Shown: one piece after another, positions 1,824 to 52,610 of the stretch
How the letters are laid out: each line of letters opens with the position of its first letter
How positions within the stretch are numbered: position 1 is the first letter of the stretch
Assembly: GCA_028753945.1 (NCBI GenBank)
Contig: JAPNXP010000014.1
Coordinates: 3,224,001 to 3,288,000 of the forward strand
DNA length: 64,000 bases
Source: Hexactinellida sp. DTS-2022
Taxonomy: Eukaryota > Porifera > Hexactinellida
Direction: 5' to 3'
Notes under the pieces: generated by a model
The model's input: only the letters and a program-made list of their open reading frames with translations
The model's database searches: none
Told to the model about the DNA's origin: nothing
Made by a program: the position numbers and the translations under genes

Positions 1824-2387
1824 CAGTGGAACCCCGCGTATGGGGGCACCTCCGTCCAAACGCTCAGCGCCCCGATACGAGGGATTGCCGCGATATGCGG
1901 GATTCTAAGAGAACTCCAATATGCATGTTTGGTTAAAACAATTAAGTTAGCACCTACACAACGAATCATAGACATATAGTCAAAACCTAGAGTTAAGGCT
2001 GATAATTATGCAGTACTACACATTACATTTTCACATTATACTTTACCTACACTAGAATTCACAAATCTATGATATTCACGGAAATTTCTTTTTGAAAAAC
2101 TCCCTCGATTAACCCAGCACGAGTCTCTAGCGTGAGTGGGTGACGCTTAGCGGCCATTACAAAGAATACTAAGCCGCTCAAAAGTAAATCATGTTACTCA
2201 TGCGAAAATAATCTTCTGTGGAGTGCCCCGATAAGTGAATGGCGCCCCGATACGCGGGTTTATTTTTAATGGGAAAAAAACAAATTCCCAACCGACTGCC
2301 CCGATACGAGGGGTGCCCCGACACTCGCATGCCCCGATACGAGGGGTGCCCCGACACTCGCATGCCCCGATATGCGGGGTTCTACTG
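1824..2387. mobile_element. Pogo-like MITE, family 2, complete
   Basis: Termini CAGTGGAACCCCGCGTATGG and CGGGGTTCTACTG are inverted repeats flanked by TA (1822-1823, 2388-2389). Internal copies of a CCCCGATACGNGGG motif occur near both ends. No coding capacity; ORFs here are translations of the repeats. Confidence 0.85.
2295..2387. repeat. Tandem repeat at the right end of pogo-like MITE 2
   Basis: A unit of about 41 bp, reading ATGCCCCGATACGAGGGG then TGCCCCGACACTCGC, is repeated about two and a half times and merges with the right terminal inverted repeat. It looks like amplification of the transposase-binding terminal sequence. Confidence 0.75.
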
Positions 2388-2407
2388 TAGCTATATAGTA
2401 TTAATTG

Positions 2408-2881
2408 CAGGGTTGCCAACCTCTGAAAACAAAAAAGCGGGAGATTTTGCCAATTTTGGCGGGAGTTTTACCAAAAAGCGGGAGGTCGAAGATTAAAAAG
2501 CGGGAGAAAAGCGGGAGACTCAATATATATGCTATTAAAAAAAATCTATTATGAATAGAACGATATAATATGATTATTTAGTATGTTTTGATATCTACAA
2601 TTAGGAAAAAAACTTGGTACTCGAAAAAAACTGAAAATTAAAAACTACAACTAAAAAAACCTGAAAAAAAACTAAAAAGAAAAAACTTGTTGCTCGTAGG
2701 TTGACTAATTTACTTGAATACGGTAATTTAAACAAATCCCGTTATTTACTTAATTATCATAAAATATAAACAATTTCCAAAAAGCGGGAGTTTTAAAAGT
2801 TTGGCGGGAGGTCGGGAGGATGAGAGAAAAAAGGCAAAAAAGCGGGAGACTCCCGCCAAAGCGGGAGGGTTGGCAACCCTG
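2408..2881. mobile_element. hAT-like MITE, GCGGGAG-rich
   Basis: The ends are CAGGGTTGCCAACC and GGTTGGCAACCCTG, perfect inverted repeats of 14 bp. TTAATTG flanks both sides (2401-2407, 2882-2888), a 7-bp match to the 8-bp duplication typical of hAT. AAAGCGGGAG occurs many times near both ends in mirrored orientation. The interior is A-rich and non-coding. Confidence 0.8.
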
Positions 2882-3378
2882 TTAATTGACATTTATTGAT
2901 AGCTTTCCATAAGTTAATCAATGTATGAATAATGTGTCTTGTACGCAGTTTGTAGGATCTTTATATACCTTTGTACTTTGAAACCATTTTATACAAGTAC
3001 AGGGTCGCTATTATCCTATATACGGACTCATGCATCATGCACATTCTCTTTAAATGACGTGTTGCGAGCTAATCTTTGATAAAATGGCCTTATATATATA
3101 TTTGTTAGATGCTTCATAAACTCTTCTGAAATATTTTTAACCCGTAGCCTGTAGCCACTAGTATCTGATAAAATATATAAGCGATATGAATTTATATTAT
3201 GACAAATTATTGTTTGCTGTAAACTAAAAGGAAATTAGTCAATTGTGTTGAATGTTCACAATTGGAAAAAATAATTAATCAGTCCGATTTTATCACGTCC
3301 AAATCTAAATTTGCATAAATTTGGTTTGGACGGGCTTGGGCGGGTCAAAAAAAAATAAAAAAAAAAACAAAACATATA

Positions 3379-21009: not shown

Positions 21010-21225
21010 GATTCGTAATGGCGTATGGACCAAGAAATTATCCAGGAGCGCGAAACGCTCCTTTTGGAGCATGATTTTTTGAAAATTTTAATTTAGGAGC
21101 GCGAAAATTTGGAATCCTCTCCTATACCGTAACAATAATTTGTGATTTAGAAGTATGAAAATTGGATCAGACGAGGATTAGGAGCGTATTTACAAATGGC
21201 TGTATAATACACTGGTATGGACTGA
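21010..21225. mobile_element. Short MITE shared with 28910-29055
   Basis: GGAGCGCGAAACGCTCC and GGAGCGCGAAAATTTGGAAT, plus the end ATGGCTGTATAATACACTG, recur in reverse complement at 28910-29055. The shared block is about 150-200 bp and non-coding. Confidence 0.6.
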
Positions 21226-21591
21226 TCGCCATTTCGATTTCGCTCAAAGGTGAGTCAGGTGATCCGATTGAAAGGTCAATCCCGCCTGTAATCCTTTCAA
21301 TGCTTTCCTTACCCTTAAGGATGCTGTACGCGAAAATATGCTGAATTTAATGTTAATAATGGAAAACGAGTTTATGCTGCTATGTTGTAGTTCAATAGCA
21401 TAATTTTAACATAGAAGTGTAATTTTCCAAAATTCACATTTCTAGGAACTTCCCTGAGGCTATTTAGTTACGTCATTTTTATTGAAATGACCAAATATGG
21501 AGATTTTTACAATATTTTATACTTTTATAATATATTCGTTATTTATATATAGCATTCATGTATCAGAATCCGATTATTATAAATTTTAAGC

Positions 21592-21662
21592 CGTGGTAGA
21601 CGTTTGAGTAGCGAACTGGCCAGGCGAGCACGCAGCCCGGGTTCGAACCCCAGTCCTACCAA
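21592..21662 (+). other. tRNA-like fragment (B-box), possible SINE head
   Basis: GGGTTCGAACCCC is a canonical T-arm/B-box, and GGTAG at the start can pair with CTACC at the end, giving part of an acceptor stem. The span is about 6 nt too short before the T arm, and no good anticodon arm was found. A TTCTTTTT run follows, which would suit a Pol III stop. More likely a tRNA relic or SINE head than a working tRNA. Confidence 0.4.
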
Positions 21663-21891: not shown

Positions 21892-22425
21892 CCTATTATC
21901 ATTTCCAACTCCATAGCGTATTCTTTCCCGAACCTATTTACTGGCACTCGAAAGAAGAACATTCTTCGCCGAACACGTAGACAAAGATTGATGAGAGAAC
22001 GGCGAGAACGAGACCTACTCCGAAGTGAAGGAGGACGCAGTTATAAGTCCAGCTCTTTTGGCTCAGAAGTTACCCCGAGACCTCCCAAAAAGACACCTAC
22101 CAGATCCCGAGCGCGAGGCAGAGGCAGGGGAAAATTACCATCGACCCGAGGAAAGGGTGCCAAACGCTGCCTGATCCCAGCTGAAACCTCCGAGTCCTCC
22201 AACGAATCAGATGTTTCCACAGCTGGTGAAAGTTCCGATGGGGTTTGCGACATCTGTGAAAGACGCCAACCACCGCCCCAAACACACCGCACGATCTATG
22301 AGAAAGCGACGGTCCGATGGATATGCTGTGACGCCTGTGACAGCTGGTTTCACCTGTGCTGCACGGAATTAGATGAGGACCAGGACGTGGGTACCATTGA
22401 TTATAGATGTTATAAGTGTTTATGA
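21892..22425 (+). CDS. PHD-finger ORF with Arg-rich N-terminus
   Basis: The frame is open from 21892; the first ATG is at 21991. The N-terminal part is Arg-rich (RRTRRQRLMRERRERD), followed by a Ser/Pro/Arg/Gly-rich linker. The last 50 residues form a PHD zinc finger: CDIC, then CCDACDSWFHLCC, then YRCYKC, giving the C4HC3 ligands, with the stop two codons later. PHD fingers usually bind histone H3 tails. The ORF has clearly higher G+C than the flanks. A CCATAG acceptor-like site at about 21914 could make this the terminal exon of a longer gene. CCDxCDxWFH fingers of this kind are also found in LINE and DNA-transposon proteins (family knowledge), so host or transposon origin is open. A hammerhead-like motif lies 156 bp after the stop on the same strand. 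Confidence 0.65.
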   Translation, partial: PIIISNSIAYSFPNLFTGTRKKNILRRTRRQRLMRERRERDLLRSEGGRSYKSSSFGSEVTPRPPKKTPTRSRARGRGRGKLPSTRGKGAKRCLIPAETSESSNESDVSTAGESSDGVCDICERRQPPPQTHRTIYEKATVRWICCDACDSWFHLCCTELDEDQDVGTIDYRCYKCL

Positions 22426-22445
22426 TAAGTTATGCACAGTGATCT

Positions 22446-22490
22446 ACCGTTTCAAGCATTTTTTTTTTTTTTTGATGCTTGGTAGATCAT
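22446..22490 (+). repeat. Hairpin around a T-run after the PHD ORF
   Basis: GATCTACC..AAGCAT pairs with ATGCTTGGTAGATC across a run of about 15 T, with a five-base bulge. About 20 bp further on, GGACAATTGTCC (22509-22520) is a perfect palindrome within a looser TGATAATCA / TGATTATCA pair. Confidence 0.6.
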
Positions 22491-22581
22491 TTGATAATCA
22501 CCATGACGGACAATTGTCCTGAACTTTGATTATCACACCTTTTGATTGATTTTTTTTGTTCAAAACTCTCAAAACATAGGT

Positions 22582-22636
22582 GGTGTATTAAGCGAATGGT
22601 AGCTTAACTGATGAGTCCTTACCGGGATGAAACACC
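22582..22636 (+). ncRNA. Candidate type III hammerhead ribozyme
   Basis: All elements of a hammerhead core are present in order. Helix III is GGTGT (22582-22586) with ACACC (22632-22636). The cleavage nucleotide position 17 is A (22587), preceded by T16.1. Helix I is a perfect 6-bp TTAAGC / GCTTAA hairpin (22588-22593, 22602-22607) with an 8-nt loop. The core CTGATGA is at 22608-22614. Helix II is GTCC / GGAT (22615-22618, 22625-22628) with a 6-nt loop. GAA at 22629-22631 is followed by A15.1. Because helix III is the open helix, the layout is type III. Cleavage would fall after 22587. Whether the RNA is made or cleaves is not known from sequence. Confidence 0.8.
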
Positions 22637-22699
22637 TATTAATTTGTATGTTAACTGTAGACTGCCTAACTGATACACGTTGTGTCAGGAGGGAAACAT

Positions 22700-24285
22700 G
22701 TCGATCTAATCATTCAAATTTCGAGAAGATTCGGATTTAGACATGGTTTTGCTTTCTCAATCCATTTCAATCAAAAAATCAAAATTTTCAGAATTTGTTA
22801 TGATGACGTAGCATAAAAGTGAACTGCTCCCCTTGCCACCCTCTTTCTTTTGTAGATAAGAAATGTTAAAATCTCACCGTGGGAATACCCATAAGAAGAT
22901 ATTAGACTAATTTTATCTGTTTTAGGATATTTGGGTGGACTAATATAGAGTTGTGACAGATATAACTCAAATATATGTATATTTTCGTAATCCATGGTTC
23001 ATCATATACAGATTTATCATTTTTATGAAAATGACGTAACTTTAGTTTCCTGATCCAGAATTGTTCAAATTTTGAGATCAGATAACTAATAAGATAGTCG
23101 TATTTGTTCCTGTTTAGAAACAAAGGATTACTTATATATTAACGGCAACATATCGATTTAAAGAGAAAGTATGTGTCATCACTTTTTTTCAAAATCCTCT
23201 AATAAATCTTTTCAAAAATTTCGTAATATTAATATATTATTGTGCTCTTGTTGGATTTCAAATTTATAGGTTCTACATATTATATACAAAGAACTACAGG
23301 TTAAGTTATTTTCCTGAAAATTAGACCGGCAGTCTACGGTTAATTGCTGGGATTAATCGAAAAAACTTTGAAGACTTGTATCTCAAAACACGGTTTTTAA
23401 GACTTTGCCTATTAAAATCTCAAAAAATATTGATCGAAATGAGTTGAAACTTTCGGATATATTAGTATGCACTTCTAACATTAGCCTGACACTAGGAAGT
23501 TGGAATCCATAAATTATTCCCCAAGTTTAAATCGATAAGATCCAAAAATCTTAGAAAATTGATGCTTTTTCGACACTCCATGGTATATTAGATAAAAGAA
23601 TTGAAATTAAGTACAAATTCAGACTTGTTCTAGGATTTCCTTTCATTCCTAGTGTTGATGAACACTCAGTATAATTTTAGGAACTAACGCCCTTATAATA
23701 CTAGCTAAACAAATACGCAAAGTAGTGATTCTATTGTATTACGTCTATGAGAAGCCAAATTTTACATTTTCCAATGACATGCCAAAAATATAACTCTCAG
23801 AAATGTTTTCAATTCTTAAAAATCTTAGTTAGACTTATAGATCTTATGTTTATAGTGATTAGATTCCTTTTGAAAAAAACTATAGAATCTACCCATGACC
23901 CCTAATAGGATTTCGCGTACAGCATCCTTAATTAAAGGGCTTGATCTTCTCCTCAAGCTCCGTGAAACCGGCTTCAGCCTAACCACCGCATGTCTTTTTT
24001 GAAGATGCCAATTTGTCACATAATGGGCTTATACTTGACGAGAATTTTGTACCATTTCTAGAAATCATCATCTTTGTTCCTGATATTTCCATGGTCTCGG
24101 GAATGGTTGCAGCTATTCCTTCCCAAATAGCGTTCTTATCTTCGAAAGATAGTATACTACTAAAATGCACAGAGTTTAGATATATTCTCCAAGACTAAAT
24201 CTACTAAACTGTTAGTCTCTAGGTTTGAGAAATTCTTTGATTGGGTTTGACAGACATTAAGGAGTAGAAAATGGTTTGTATGATT
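22700..24285. other. AT-rich stretch without recognised genes
   Basis: No gene or bounded element recognised. ORFs of 60-75 codons are AT-driven. The segment at 23880-24190 is slightly less AT-rich, with short overlapping ORFs on both strands, but none shows a known domain. Confidence 0.45.
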
Positions 24286-28473: not shown

Positions 28474-29556
28474 CAGAGGGTCCTGGCTGGAATACGGATT
28501 TACGGATTTGGAGTCCGTTAAATCCGTTATTTACGGATCTGGAAAAATTCTCTAATCCATTCCAAATCCGTAAATATTCGGATTTTTAATGGGGTTGAAA
28601 ATAATTCTCAAATATTTCGAAAATCCTTTATGATAATATGGTATAAAGGAATTTTGGAATGAGAATTCACTTTGTACCTCCTAATTTTAGATAAATATAC
28701 CAAGATTGAAACCGAATACTGATATATTTGGTTGAACCGAATATTATTTGCCACTATTCGGTATTCGGTTGCCAACCTGAAATCACTATTCTATATTCGG
28801 TCTCCCGACCGAATATTATCAGTATTCGTATTCGGTTGACGTAACCGAATATCAACAGTATTTGTATTCGGTTGACGTAACCGAGTATTATTTGTGTTCG
28901 TAATCTGCAGTGTATTATACAGCCATTAGTAATTAAGCCTAAACACAAATTAATGTTATGGTATGGGAGAAGATTCCAATTTTTCGCGCTCCTAATTATC
29001 TTTTTCCTAAATCATATTCCAAAAGGAGCGTCTCGAGCTCCTGGATAATTACCTGGTATTCGGTTGACGTAACCAAATATTATCAGTATTCGTATTCGGT
29101 TGACGTAACCGAATATTACCAGTTTTCGTATTCGGTTGAAGCAACGAAAATTATCCGTATTCGTATTCGGTTACTCAACTAAATATCAGTATTCGTATTC
29201 GGCAGGGCAACTATTCATGAATACTGATATTCGGTTCGAGCGGTTTCAACCTTGAAATATACACATGATGCCTACTATTAAGACTTCTAAACCAACCATC
29301 TGGGTCTACAAATCTATATTTATAAGCAATTAAAAATGTATTGGGAAAACGTATGGATTTGAAAATCCCTATGGATTTGAAAATCCCTATGGATTTGGAA
29401 GTTCGTATGGATTTAGGAAATCCGTATGAAAAAAAAATCAGCTACGGACAGAGGGTTCGTATGGATTACGGATTTCGCATATGGAATTATATTTCTAGAT
29501 GAGATGGATTATGGATCGGATATGGATACGGGTTCCGGATCCATTCGGACCCTCTG
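28474..29556. mobile_element. hAT-like element with an exact 8-bp duplication, composite
   Basis: Ends CAGAGGGTCC and GGACCCTCTG are perfect inverts, and ATTGTACG is duplicated exactly at 28466-28473 and 29557-29564. The outer part carries many ATCCGTA/TACGGAT motifs. The interior (about 28700-29250) is an older-style insert of ATTCGGTTGACGTAACCGAA repeats, itself holding a small MITE at 28910-29055. No transposase ORF. Confidence 0.9.
28700..29250. repeat. Palindromic ATTCGGTTGACGTAACCGAAT repeat array
   Basis: At least six copies of TATTCGGTTGACGTAACCGA or close variants are spread over both sides of a central MITE. Each copy is a near-palindrome (TTCGGTTGACGTAACCGAA, with TCGGTT and AACCGA arms). 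The array is probably the terminal region of an element inserted within 28474-29556, but its exact ends are unclear. Confidence 0.7.
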
Positions 29557-51805: not shown

Positions 51806-52610
51806 TTCAGAGAAAACTGATTCTTCCAAATCAAAGTCTTCCTCATCGTTGGTATGTAGGTCGTTAATTGTGGACAAGAGATCTTGATGCCGGGACTCTC
51901 TTCCCCACATAACCTTGAATGGAGTTAGTCCGAAGGAAATTTTCTTACAGGAGTTCATTGCAAGAACAGCCTGTTTCAGTAGTTTGGAGCAATGATTTTT
52001 TTCCATATGGAAGTTCGTAAATGGGTCTAAATTTTATATTACAAAATACTAACTGTTTCAGAATCTTGTTCTGCGCATCGACTAAGCCGTTAGCCATCGG
52101 AATGAAAGCACGAGTGTAACGATTGTCTATAACCAATTTCTAGTTGAATTCCTTAAATATCTGTTAAATACAATAAATAAAAATACTATAAATAAATACA
52201 AATAACAATACATACTATAATGTTAGTGTGTAAAATTAGATAATTGTCACTAATCTAATAAACAGTATTACCTTATACTACTCACACTGCTTGTGAACTA
52301 TTTGCCCTGGTCGTGCTGGATAATATTAGGTAATCCCAAATCGAGATAGATGTCTTTCAGATTCTGAATAACTTCTTGTGAAGTCTTAGTCTTGAGAGTG
52401 CATACTGCAACATATTTGCTCAGGTAGCATACAGTGACTAGAATGTGTTTATAGCCATCTTCACTCTCAGGTAGGTCGCATATAAGGTCCATTCCTATAT
52501 GTCTCCACGTTTTAGACGTATGTAGTATTGGTTGGAGTTTCTAATGCAGTTGAGGTGGCAAGGCCGCTGTCATCTGACATCTTTGGCAAGTCTTTACATT
52601 TATAATATAA
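51803..52610 (-). pseudogene. Gypsy-like integrase gene with intron, copy A
   Basis: Minus strand: CQRCQMTAALPPQ at about 52590 is the end of the HHCC zinc domain, then GMDLICDLPESEDGYKHILV with the first catalytic Asp, and NIIQHDQGK with the second. A TAG replaces the Glu codon after GK. An intron of 125 bp (52161-52285) follows, then the second exon: DNRYTRAFIPMANGLVDAQN, where Asp stands in place of the usual catalytic Glu, and LLKQAVLAMNSCKKISFGLT, then an acidic tail. The gene is cut at SEV (51803) by the LINE. Copy B at 58180-60620 is collinear and also has the intron, which speaks for spread as DNA rather than through spliced RNA. Compare Ginger-type DNA transposons (family recalled, unverified). 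Confidence 0.8.
52161..52285 (-). other. Intron in integrase copy A
   Basis: Minus: AGCAGT then GTGAGTAGTATAAGG at the donor, TGTATTTAACAG at the acceptor, followed by ATATTTAAGG. The phase is 0. Copy B has the same donor and acceptor (GTAAGTAGTATAAGG, GTATTTAACAG) at 59233 and 59911. Confidence 0.8.

Follow-up and report, generated by a model that had tools for sequence, protein, structure and literature searches.

The window, by which we mean the whole 64-kb stretch of DNA analyzed (G000:C6:3224001-3288000, in a genome of 112.4 Mb in 18 contigs), carries at positions 22582-22636 of the forward strand a type III hammerhead ribozyme with a predicted cut after A22587, a reading based on the letters themselves, their fold, a descriptor search, and a family of related copies. 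Read directly, the motif is GGTGT-A-TTAAGC-GAATGGTA-GCTTAA-CTGATGA, continuing after CTGATGA with GTCC-TTACCG-GGAT-GAA-ACACC. All core elements are present (CUGAUGA, GAA, U16.1-A15.1, and A at H17, position 22587), and there are three helices: helix III of 5 bp, helix I of 6 bp, and helix II of 4-5 bp with a G.U at 10.1-11.1. Helix III is open and helices I and II are closed, which is the type III order, and both the MFE and the centroid fold of the 55 nt are exactly the type III hammerhead structure. The initial annotation had described a complete type III core with three helices in these 55 nt, and this is borne out by direct reading and fold. The motif is thus confirmed as a real hammerhead observation; by sequence it is of type III, and it is predicted to cleave itself.

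The fold energy of the 55 nt is unremarkable (z -1.61; 10 of 200 shuffles fold equally well). A descriptor composed after the motif was known (all core bases; stem III of at least 5 bp, I of at least 5 bp, and II of at least 4 bp) matches, with both strands scanned, one place in the 64 kb and none in 300 dinucleotide shuffles, in agreement with the annotation's estimate that such a combination would rarely arise by chance. The annotation had also made its claim depend on a significant covariance-model hit, and that part formally fell: the Rfam model Hammerhead_3 (RF00008) scores the motif at 19.3 bits against a gathering cut-off of 48.5, with an E-value of 0.23 (for 600 bp and 4227 families), and no Rfam family reaches its own cut-off anywhere in the window. 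The gathering cut-off is a detection threshold and not a chemical criterion, and we overrule the lack of significance because stems I and II and the loop-loop contact show compensatory changes among copies across the genome. Taken alone, the window motif would be a moderate case.

The ribozyme lies inside a mobile element. An exact inverted pair, with no equivalent in 100 shuffles, is formed by a left terminal inverted repeat with its TTAA target (TTAAGGATGCTGTACGCGAAA; 21315-21335, forward strand) and a right terminal inverted repeat with TTAA (23911-23931, reverse strand). Between them, on the forward strand, is a transposase gene remnant (21892-22425, stop codon 22423-22425) that corresponds to the C-terminal part, is 86% identical to residues 665-825 of the transposase at a sibling locus (L045), and includes a PHD finger (PF00628, 22.3 bits, just below the cut-off of 24). 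Downstream from the ribozyme, an abundant foreign repeat of 689 bp (about 22652-23340, strand not assigned) has been inserted in this copy, and the element resumes at ~23341. Since the terminal repeats are kept while the transposase is truncated and a foreign repeat is inserted, the sequence identifies the host of the window ribozyme as a DNA transposon that is deleted and non-autonomous, and not a retroelement, a context that the annotation had not described. A tRNA-like B box (GGGTTCGAACCC, 21639-21650) also lies in its left part, with a similar box in L045, L035, and L040; ARAGORN found no tRNA. Elsewhere in the window, 21029-21147 and 28941-29057 form pairs of inverted arms of ~50 bp, separated by 7.8-7.9 kb, which may represent a larger nested repeat.

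Searching the genome at the DNA level with 73 bases, we found 15 places including the window: five copies that we call W-type (the window, C15:238099, C11:5498793, C11:9620941, and C11:6928837), seven of a second type (L034-L039 and L041, hereafter L034-type), two of a third (L040/L043-type), and one truncated copy (L042). Inverted repeats, TTAA ends, a PF20700 domain, and a PHD finger are common to the window family and TTAA/PF20700 transposons, from which the W-type copies differ by a hammerhead that starts 153-158 nt past the transposase stop codon in five of five. From stop to stop, the transposase frame has 826 aa (L045) or 824 aa (L047), with interruptions in L044 and L046; a 456-aa piece of a sibling transposase matches PF20700, a Mutator-like transposase, with an E-value of 1.2e-49. 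L044 and L045 have 3.94 kb in common at 99.4%, and the shared stretch stops no more than a few bases away from inverted repeats of the form TTAAGGA(T/A)GCTGAACGCGAAA, and the repeats of the window copy are of the same kind. Judging from the TTAA target and the domain, these elements may be Kolobok-like. The DNA search showed no second hammerhead of the window family in W-type elements, and in the 3-kb loci of three siblings (L030, L032, and L033) no Rfam family matched at E≤1. Neither the L034 family, in which the H17 column is absent, nor the L040/L043 family, in which helix III is absent, is coding; between W-type and L034-type copies, ~50 bp around the core align at 84%-91%, except for parts of the 3' end. 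A wider pattern, CTGATGANTCCNNNNCGGGATGAAACACC with up to three mismatches, gave 123 matches in the genome and none for the reversed-pattern control.

A form with CTGACGAGTCC..GCCGGGACGAAACACA was frequent among these 123 matches and defines a further family, F2. With a dedicated pattern we counted 93 F2 copies (control, 0), of which 63 are exact, that is, they match a 35-place pattern through CTGANGA. The F2 core can be aligned with that of the window: loop I is similar (GAAWGGNA in most), H17 is the same in most rows, and loop II ends in CCG. Helix I is TTGCG/CGCAA in F2 versus TTAAGC/GCTTAA in the window (TTGAG/CTCAA in L073), and helix III usually has 4 bp. In nine F2 loci with an RF00008 match the scores are 22.7-36.6 bits, below the cut-off. 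When seven F2 copies were folded with flanks of 20 nt, no copy showed all three helices. Some F2 subfamilies can be aligned over just 54-64 bp around the ribozyme, the flanks having diverged.

Among the matches listed (150 scored of 531 OTU candidates and 150 scored of 890 rve candidates), at least 26 of the 93 F2 copies have an OTU-protease match within 3 kb, always upstream and on the same strand (26 of 26, at 94-737 nt), and at least 34 have an rve integrase match within 8 kb (29 same-strand upstream, four opposite-strand upstream, and one downstream). PF20700, with 103 transposase matches listed, lies within 6 kb of 10 copies (eight upstream on the same strand, one downstream, one opposite), and 39 copies have none of the three domains nearby among the matches listed. 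Random placement on the same contigs yielded, over 200 trials, on average 0.9 OTU, 2.3 rve, and 1.2 PF20700 neighbors, with maxima of 3, 8, and 4. The ribozyme is not universal among related transposases and OTU genes in the stretches fetched: seven other OTU 3' ends had no ribozyme match, nor had 14 short stretches downstream from related transposases, although two of these loci (L053 and L054) have one further on.

One F2 element could be delimited, at C12:598k, in a search for terminal inverted repeats that covered four F2 loci and was negative in the other three. Its terminal inverted repeats are 147 bp long (TGTTG...CAACA), and GTCC stands on either side of the element. Inside are rve and OTU domains (rve above the Pfam cut-off, OTU at 23.1 against 23.3), with the ribozyme located past the OTU stop and before the right repeat; the gene is probably split by introns. 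Ginger1 transposons are described as carrying a Gypsy-like integrase together with an OTU or Ulp1 protease domain, introns, terminal inverted repeats of 40-270 bp that start with TGTNR, and a 4-bp target duplication (Bao et al. 2010, PMC2836005). The C12:598k element agrees in having rve and OTU in one element, in its 147-bp repeats, and in their TGTTG start, and differs in its duplication, GTCC in this one element versus CCGG or CCGT in Ginger1. Elsewhere in the window, at 52289-52597 on the reverse strand (C6:3276289-3276597), there is a Ginger-like integrase match with 58% identity and two stops.

In two further loci, L083 and L084, a PF20700 transposase lies 1.7 kb before an F2 ribozyme. 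They have 13,190 bp in common at 99.99%, beginning exactly at TTAA and including the ribozyme, a length that is a lower bound as the right end is beyond the sequence covered; with their flanks (L096-L099) they appear as a TTAA-flanked unit of at least 13.2 kb running into a long tandem array. Such near-identity probably reflects very recent mobility of a large transposon. About 280 bp around the ribozyme match L086, a Ginger-like locus, at 87%, so the sequence here could be a Ginger piece that is nested or was captured.

That these sequences form a real hammerhead family seems to us virtually certain, and we have hardly any doubt that the family lies inside DNA transposons. Two alignments were used: one of 13 of the 14 located cores from the DNA search (the duplicate L031 was dropped; the core of the truncated L042 was not located), and a larger one for covariation, with 34 of 44 rows after 10 identical ones were dropped, and without L077-L082 (of L040-type except for L077 and L079, in which helix I is missing). 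In the 34 rows, the type III structure plus a kissing helix pairs 81.6% of cells, versus 26%-39% with the partners slid. Cells changed on both sides number 50, compared with 20.2 in shuffled alignments, and the covariation score is 0.195 versus 0.097, neither value being reached in 500 shuffles. There is no excess in the 34 rows in pairs changed on both sides (6 versus 6.2 in shuffles) or in further pair types (17 versus 17.2). Independent covariation events are few, because the pair states largely follow clades.

Individual pairs show where the changes lie. Helix I switches at 10-25 and 11-24 between GC and AU (19 and 10 rows) and between CG and AU (18 and 13), with L073 representing an extra intermediate state; the first pair of helix II, 35-48, switches between GC and AU (22 and 8 rows). 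Helix III varies little across the 34 rows, with one weak pair, and RNAalifold on the same rows called helices I and II and not helix III. In the window, GGUA of loop I (22598-22601) pairs with UACC of loop II (22620-22623), both on the forward strand. The inner pairs of this kissing helix change jointly among GGU/ACC (the window state), GGG/CCC, and GGC/GCC, and the pair 20-41 occurs as CG, GC, or UA (15, 6, and 5 rows). On the basis of this covariation the family would have the loop I-loop II tertiary contact of known hammerheads, among which such pseudoknots are reported for all types and matter for speed (PMC3088659). Covarying copies elsewhere in the genome, which the annotation had proposed looking for, therefore exist, with 15 places from the DNA search, 93 homologous copies, and compensatory changes.

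Within its own flanks the window copy is predicted to fold differently. The probability of the active helix III falls from 0.97 to 0.06-0.01 once 10-40 nt of flank are added, as a competing register (AUAGGUG/CACCUAU) and other pairings arise; that register is preferred at about 10-30 nt of flank, and longer contexts leave little helix III. In W-type siblings with flanks it is 0.96-0.97 in L030, 0.51-0.67 in L032, and 0.98 in L033; helix II of L033, with U.U as its first pair, reaches only 0.02 in the standard register. The window copy, belonging to a deleted element, may thus cut poorly, while its intact siblings would very probably cut themselves.

The position of the ribozyme suggests what a cut would do. 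Poly(A)-type hexamers are found downstream from it in all five W-type copies, and those of L044 and L045 are clearly part of the element; the first AATAAA of the window copy is within the inserted repeat, and L046 has an extra AATAAA 23 nt upstream of the ribozyme. We infer that, once the transposon gene is transcribed, the RNA would cut itself after A22587, and the transposase mRNA would lose its poly(A) tail because the cut falls between the stop codon and the downstream poly(A) signals.

A structure for the resulting end is predicted upstream, on the same strand. In the window copy, UGCAC (22433-22437, invariant in four aligned copies) would pair with the cleaved 3' end GUGUA (22583-22587) and close three hairpins: hairpin 1 (22438-22491), with a U-rich loop and two pairs changed on both sides among the four copies, hairpin 2 (22492-22535), with one such pair, and hairpin 3 (22536-22582). 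In the predicted 5' products of all four W-type copies folded (L031, nearly identical to L030, was left out), UGCAC/GUGUA closes the three hairpins, and the last base of its 3' strand is H17; the outermost pair has a probability of 0.64-0.67 and the other four 0.96-1.00. In the window copy the hairpins abut, with no unpaired base between 22433-22437 and 22583-22587, and the predicted junction is gap-free in three of the four copies, L032 having two single-base gaps. The closing stem itself has no covariation among the four copies. In shuffle tests of end pairing the observed value was reached in 0-3 of 60 for W-type copies, a mild test, and results for F2 copies were mixed. In the uncut RNA, helix III and the closing stem both draw on GUGUA, and a consensus fold of the four W-type copies before cleavage forms the closing stem rather than helix III. 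In the window family, then, the new 3' end would complete a four-way junction, 155 nt long and built from three hairpins, this closed junction would protect the new mRNA end, and the purpose might be to limit or re-route transposase expression.

The reading that we consider likely starts from what can be read in the DNA, namely, the motif, its conservation and covariation, its position and orientation, and its transposon context: a type III hammerhead on the sense strand, 3' of the stop codon, in PF20700 and Ginger1-like transposons, which would cut the transposase mRNA. We lean slightly toward processing of the transposon mRNA 3' end as its main role. A further model, in which at least two kinds of DNA transposon make poly(A)-free ends by hammerhead cleavage and, in the window family, the helix III strand re-pairs with UGCAC close to the stop codon as a ribozyme-made substitute for the tail, is tentative and, in our judgment, rather doubtful; if true, such an mRNA end would be independent of the host 3'-end machinery.

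Chance resemblance in a single window would fit the low Rfam score, about ten such scores being expected over the whole 112 Mb by arithmetic from the E-value of 0.23. We rejected it as extremely improbable given the absence of matches in 300 shuffles, a repeat family with reversed-pattern controls at 0, and the covariation. The conserved block might also act as a site at the DNA level or as a target for protein binding, such as an internal binding site of the transposase, its hammerhead look being an inherited accident. The 3' half of the block lends itself to this explanation: TCCATACCGGGATGAAACACC has 101 matches with up to two mismatches (control, 0), and 20 such stretches picked from them (19 distinct, as two overlap; L095 and L123-L142 included) keep the 3' half without CUGAUGA in 19 of 19, while the non-coding L034 and L040 families retain the block without H17 or helix III, respectively. 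What a DNA site would leave aside is that two stems with compensatory changes and a kissing pair with three states indicate RNA structure, that the 63 exact F2 copies preserve their pattern through CTGANGA, and that a homologous module recurs in two transposon types, with every OTU neighbor among the matches listed upstream on the same strand. We hold this explanation to be quite improbable. The same observations count against the mRNA-end reading as well, since the 3' half persists in families that have no transposase and have lost CUGAUGA or helix III, and that model leaves the 3'-half-only families unexplained.

If, instead, a retrozyme- or viroid-like insertion had been captured by an ancestral transposon, the ribozyme would cut but have no function for the element. 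The genome does contain at least 64 canonical type III hammerheads above the Rfam cut-off, the presence of F2 and W-type ribozymes in two kinds of transposon requires a transfer, and ~280 bp around the ribozyme in L083/L084 match a Ginger-like locus. Such a hitch-hiker is nevertheless unlikely: no second hammerhead of the window family was seen in W-type elements, and the ribozyme alone stays alignable (54-64 bp among some F2 subfamilies, ~50 bp between W-type and L034-type copies) while the flanks diverge, so selection seems to retain it. A retrozyme or tandem-repeat context for the W-type ribozymes themselves was rejected, given the terminal inverted repeats and the one hammerhead per element.

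Hammerheads in animal genomes have been linked to circular RNAs and retroelements. In animals they are usually of type I, type III being found mostly in plants or viroid-like RNAs (PMC7761336), which agrees with the annotation's remark that a type III arrangement is unusual in animals. The window motif has the core bases and the open helix III order of RF00008 members, known from plant viroid-like RNAs and plant retrozymes; it differs from them in scoring below the cut-off and in being a single copy in a DNA transposon rather than part of a circular RNA or retrozyme, and its GUA cleavage triplet and a genome that is animal-like by its gene content set it further apart from the plant and viroid-like members. 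The discontinuous hammerhead of mammalian Clec2 is likewise a type III in an mRNA 3' UTR (PMC6155905), but it has a very large helix I and belongs to a host gene, whereas here helix I has 5-6 bp and the ribozymes are in transposon genes, in many copies. Penelope-like elements and animal retrozymes are also cases of hammerheads spread by mobile elements in animals (PMC7229834 and PMC6155905). Those are retroelements, with type I motifs in the repeats of the retrozymes, whereas the elements described here are DNA transposons with terminal inverted repeats and one type III hammerhead, in contrast to the hammerheads in direct repeats of a non-autonomous retroelement that define a retrozyme; by eye, no reverse transcriptase was seen among open frames of at least 100 aa in W-type and F2 loci.

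We found no report of hammerheads in DNA transposons among the papers listed by a literature search outside subscription papers and preprints, PMC6431247 and PMC7761336 included; in the main text of PMC2836005, on Ginger1, the word "hammerhead" has no occurrence. The ribozyme class is thus a known one, and its location and kind of host are new. Transposons without an RNA intermediate are an unexpected setting for self-cutting RNAs, and explanations by rolling-circle replication or reverse transcription do not apply because a cut-and-paste host has no such intermediate. The predicted ribozyme could shape the end of a transposon messenger RNA, and with ~100 natural variants in one genome, the role of hammerheads in mRNAs becomes directly testable. 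The findings further suggest that a family of mRNA-end ribozymes escapes notice under the Rfam cut-offs.

Searches with other models and in other sequence sets gave further observations. The Rfam model Hammerhead_1 had no match in the genome, nor had its control, and exact ribozyme patterns had no match in viral contigs and prokaryote genomes, a set from which records of the source genome may have been omitted. In similarity searches bearing on the source organism, the named hits were Elysia crispata and Actinia tenebrosa, at 26%-27% identity. Genome-wide, at least 64 RF00008 matches exceed the Rfam cut-off, the best at 64.3 bits (68 scored of 12,319 candidates), and some lie ~210-650 bp apart. 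Three of the eight such loci fetched (L002-L004, of L001-L008) have 272-278 bp in common at 93%-94%. Hammerheads of this kind are canonical type III, retrozyme- or viroid-like, and distinct from the window family. One of these loci, L001, also contains at 2303-3018 a long near-perfect palindrome (718 aligned bp, 98% identity).
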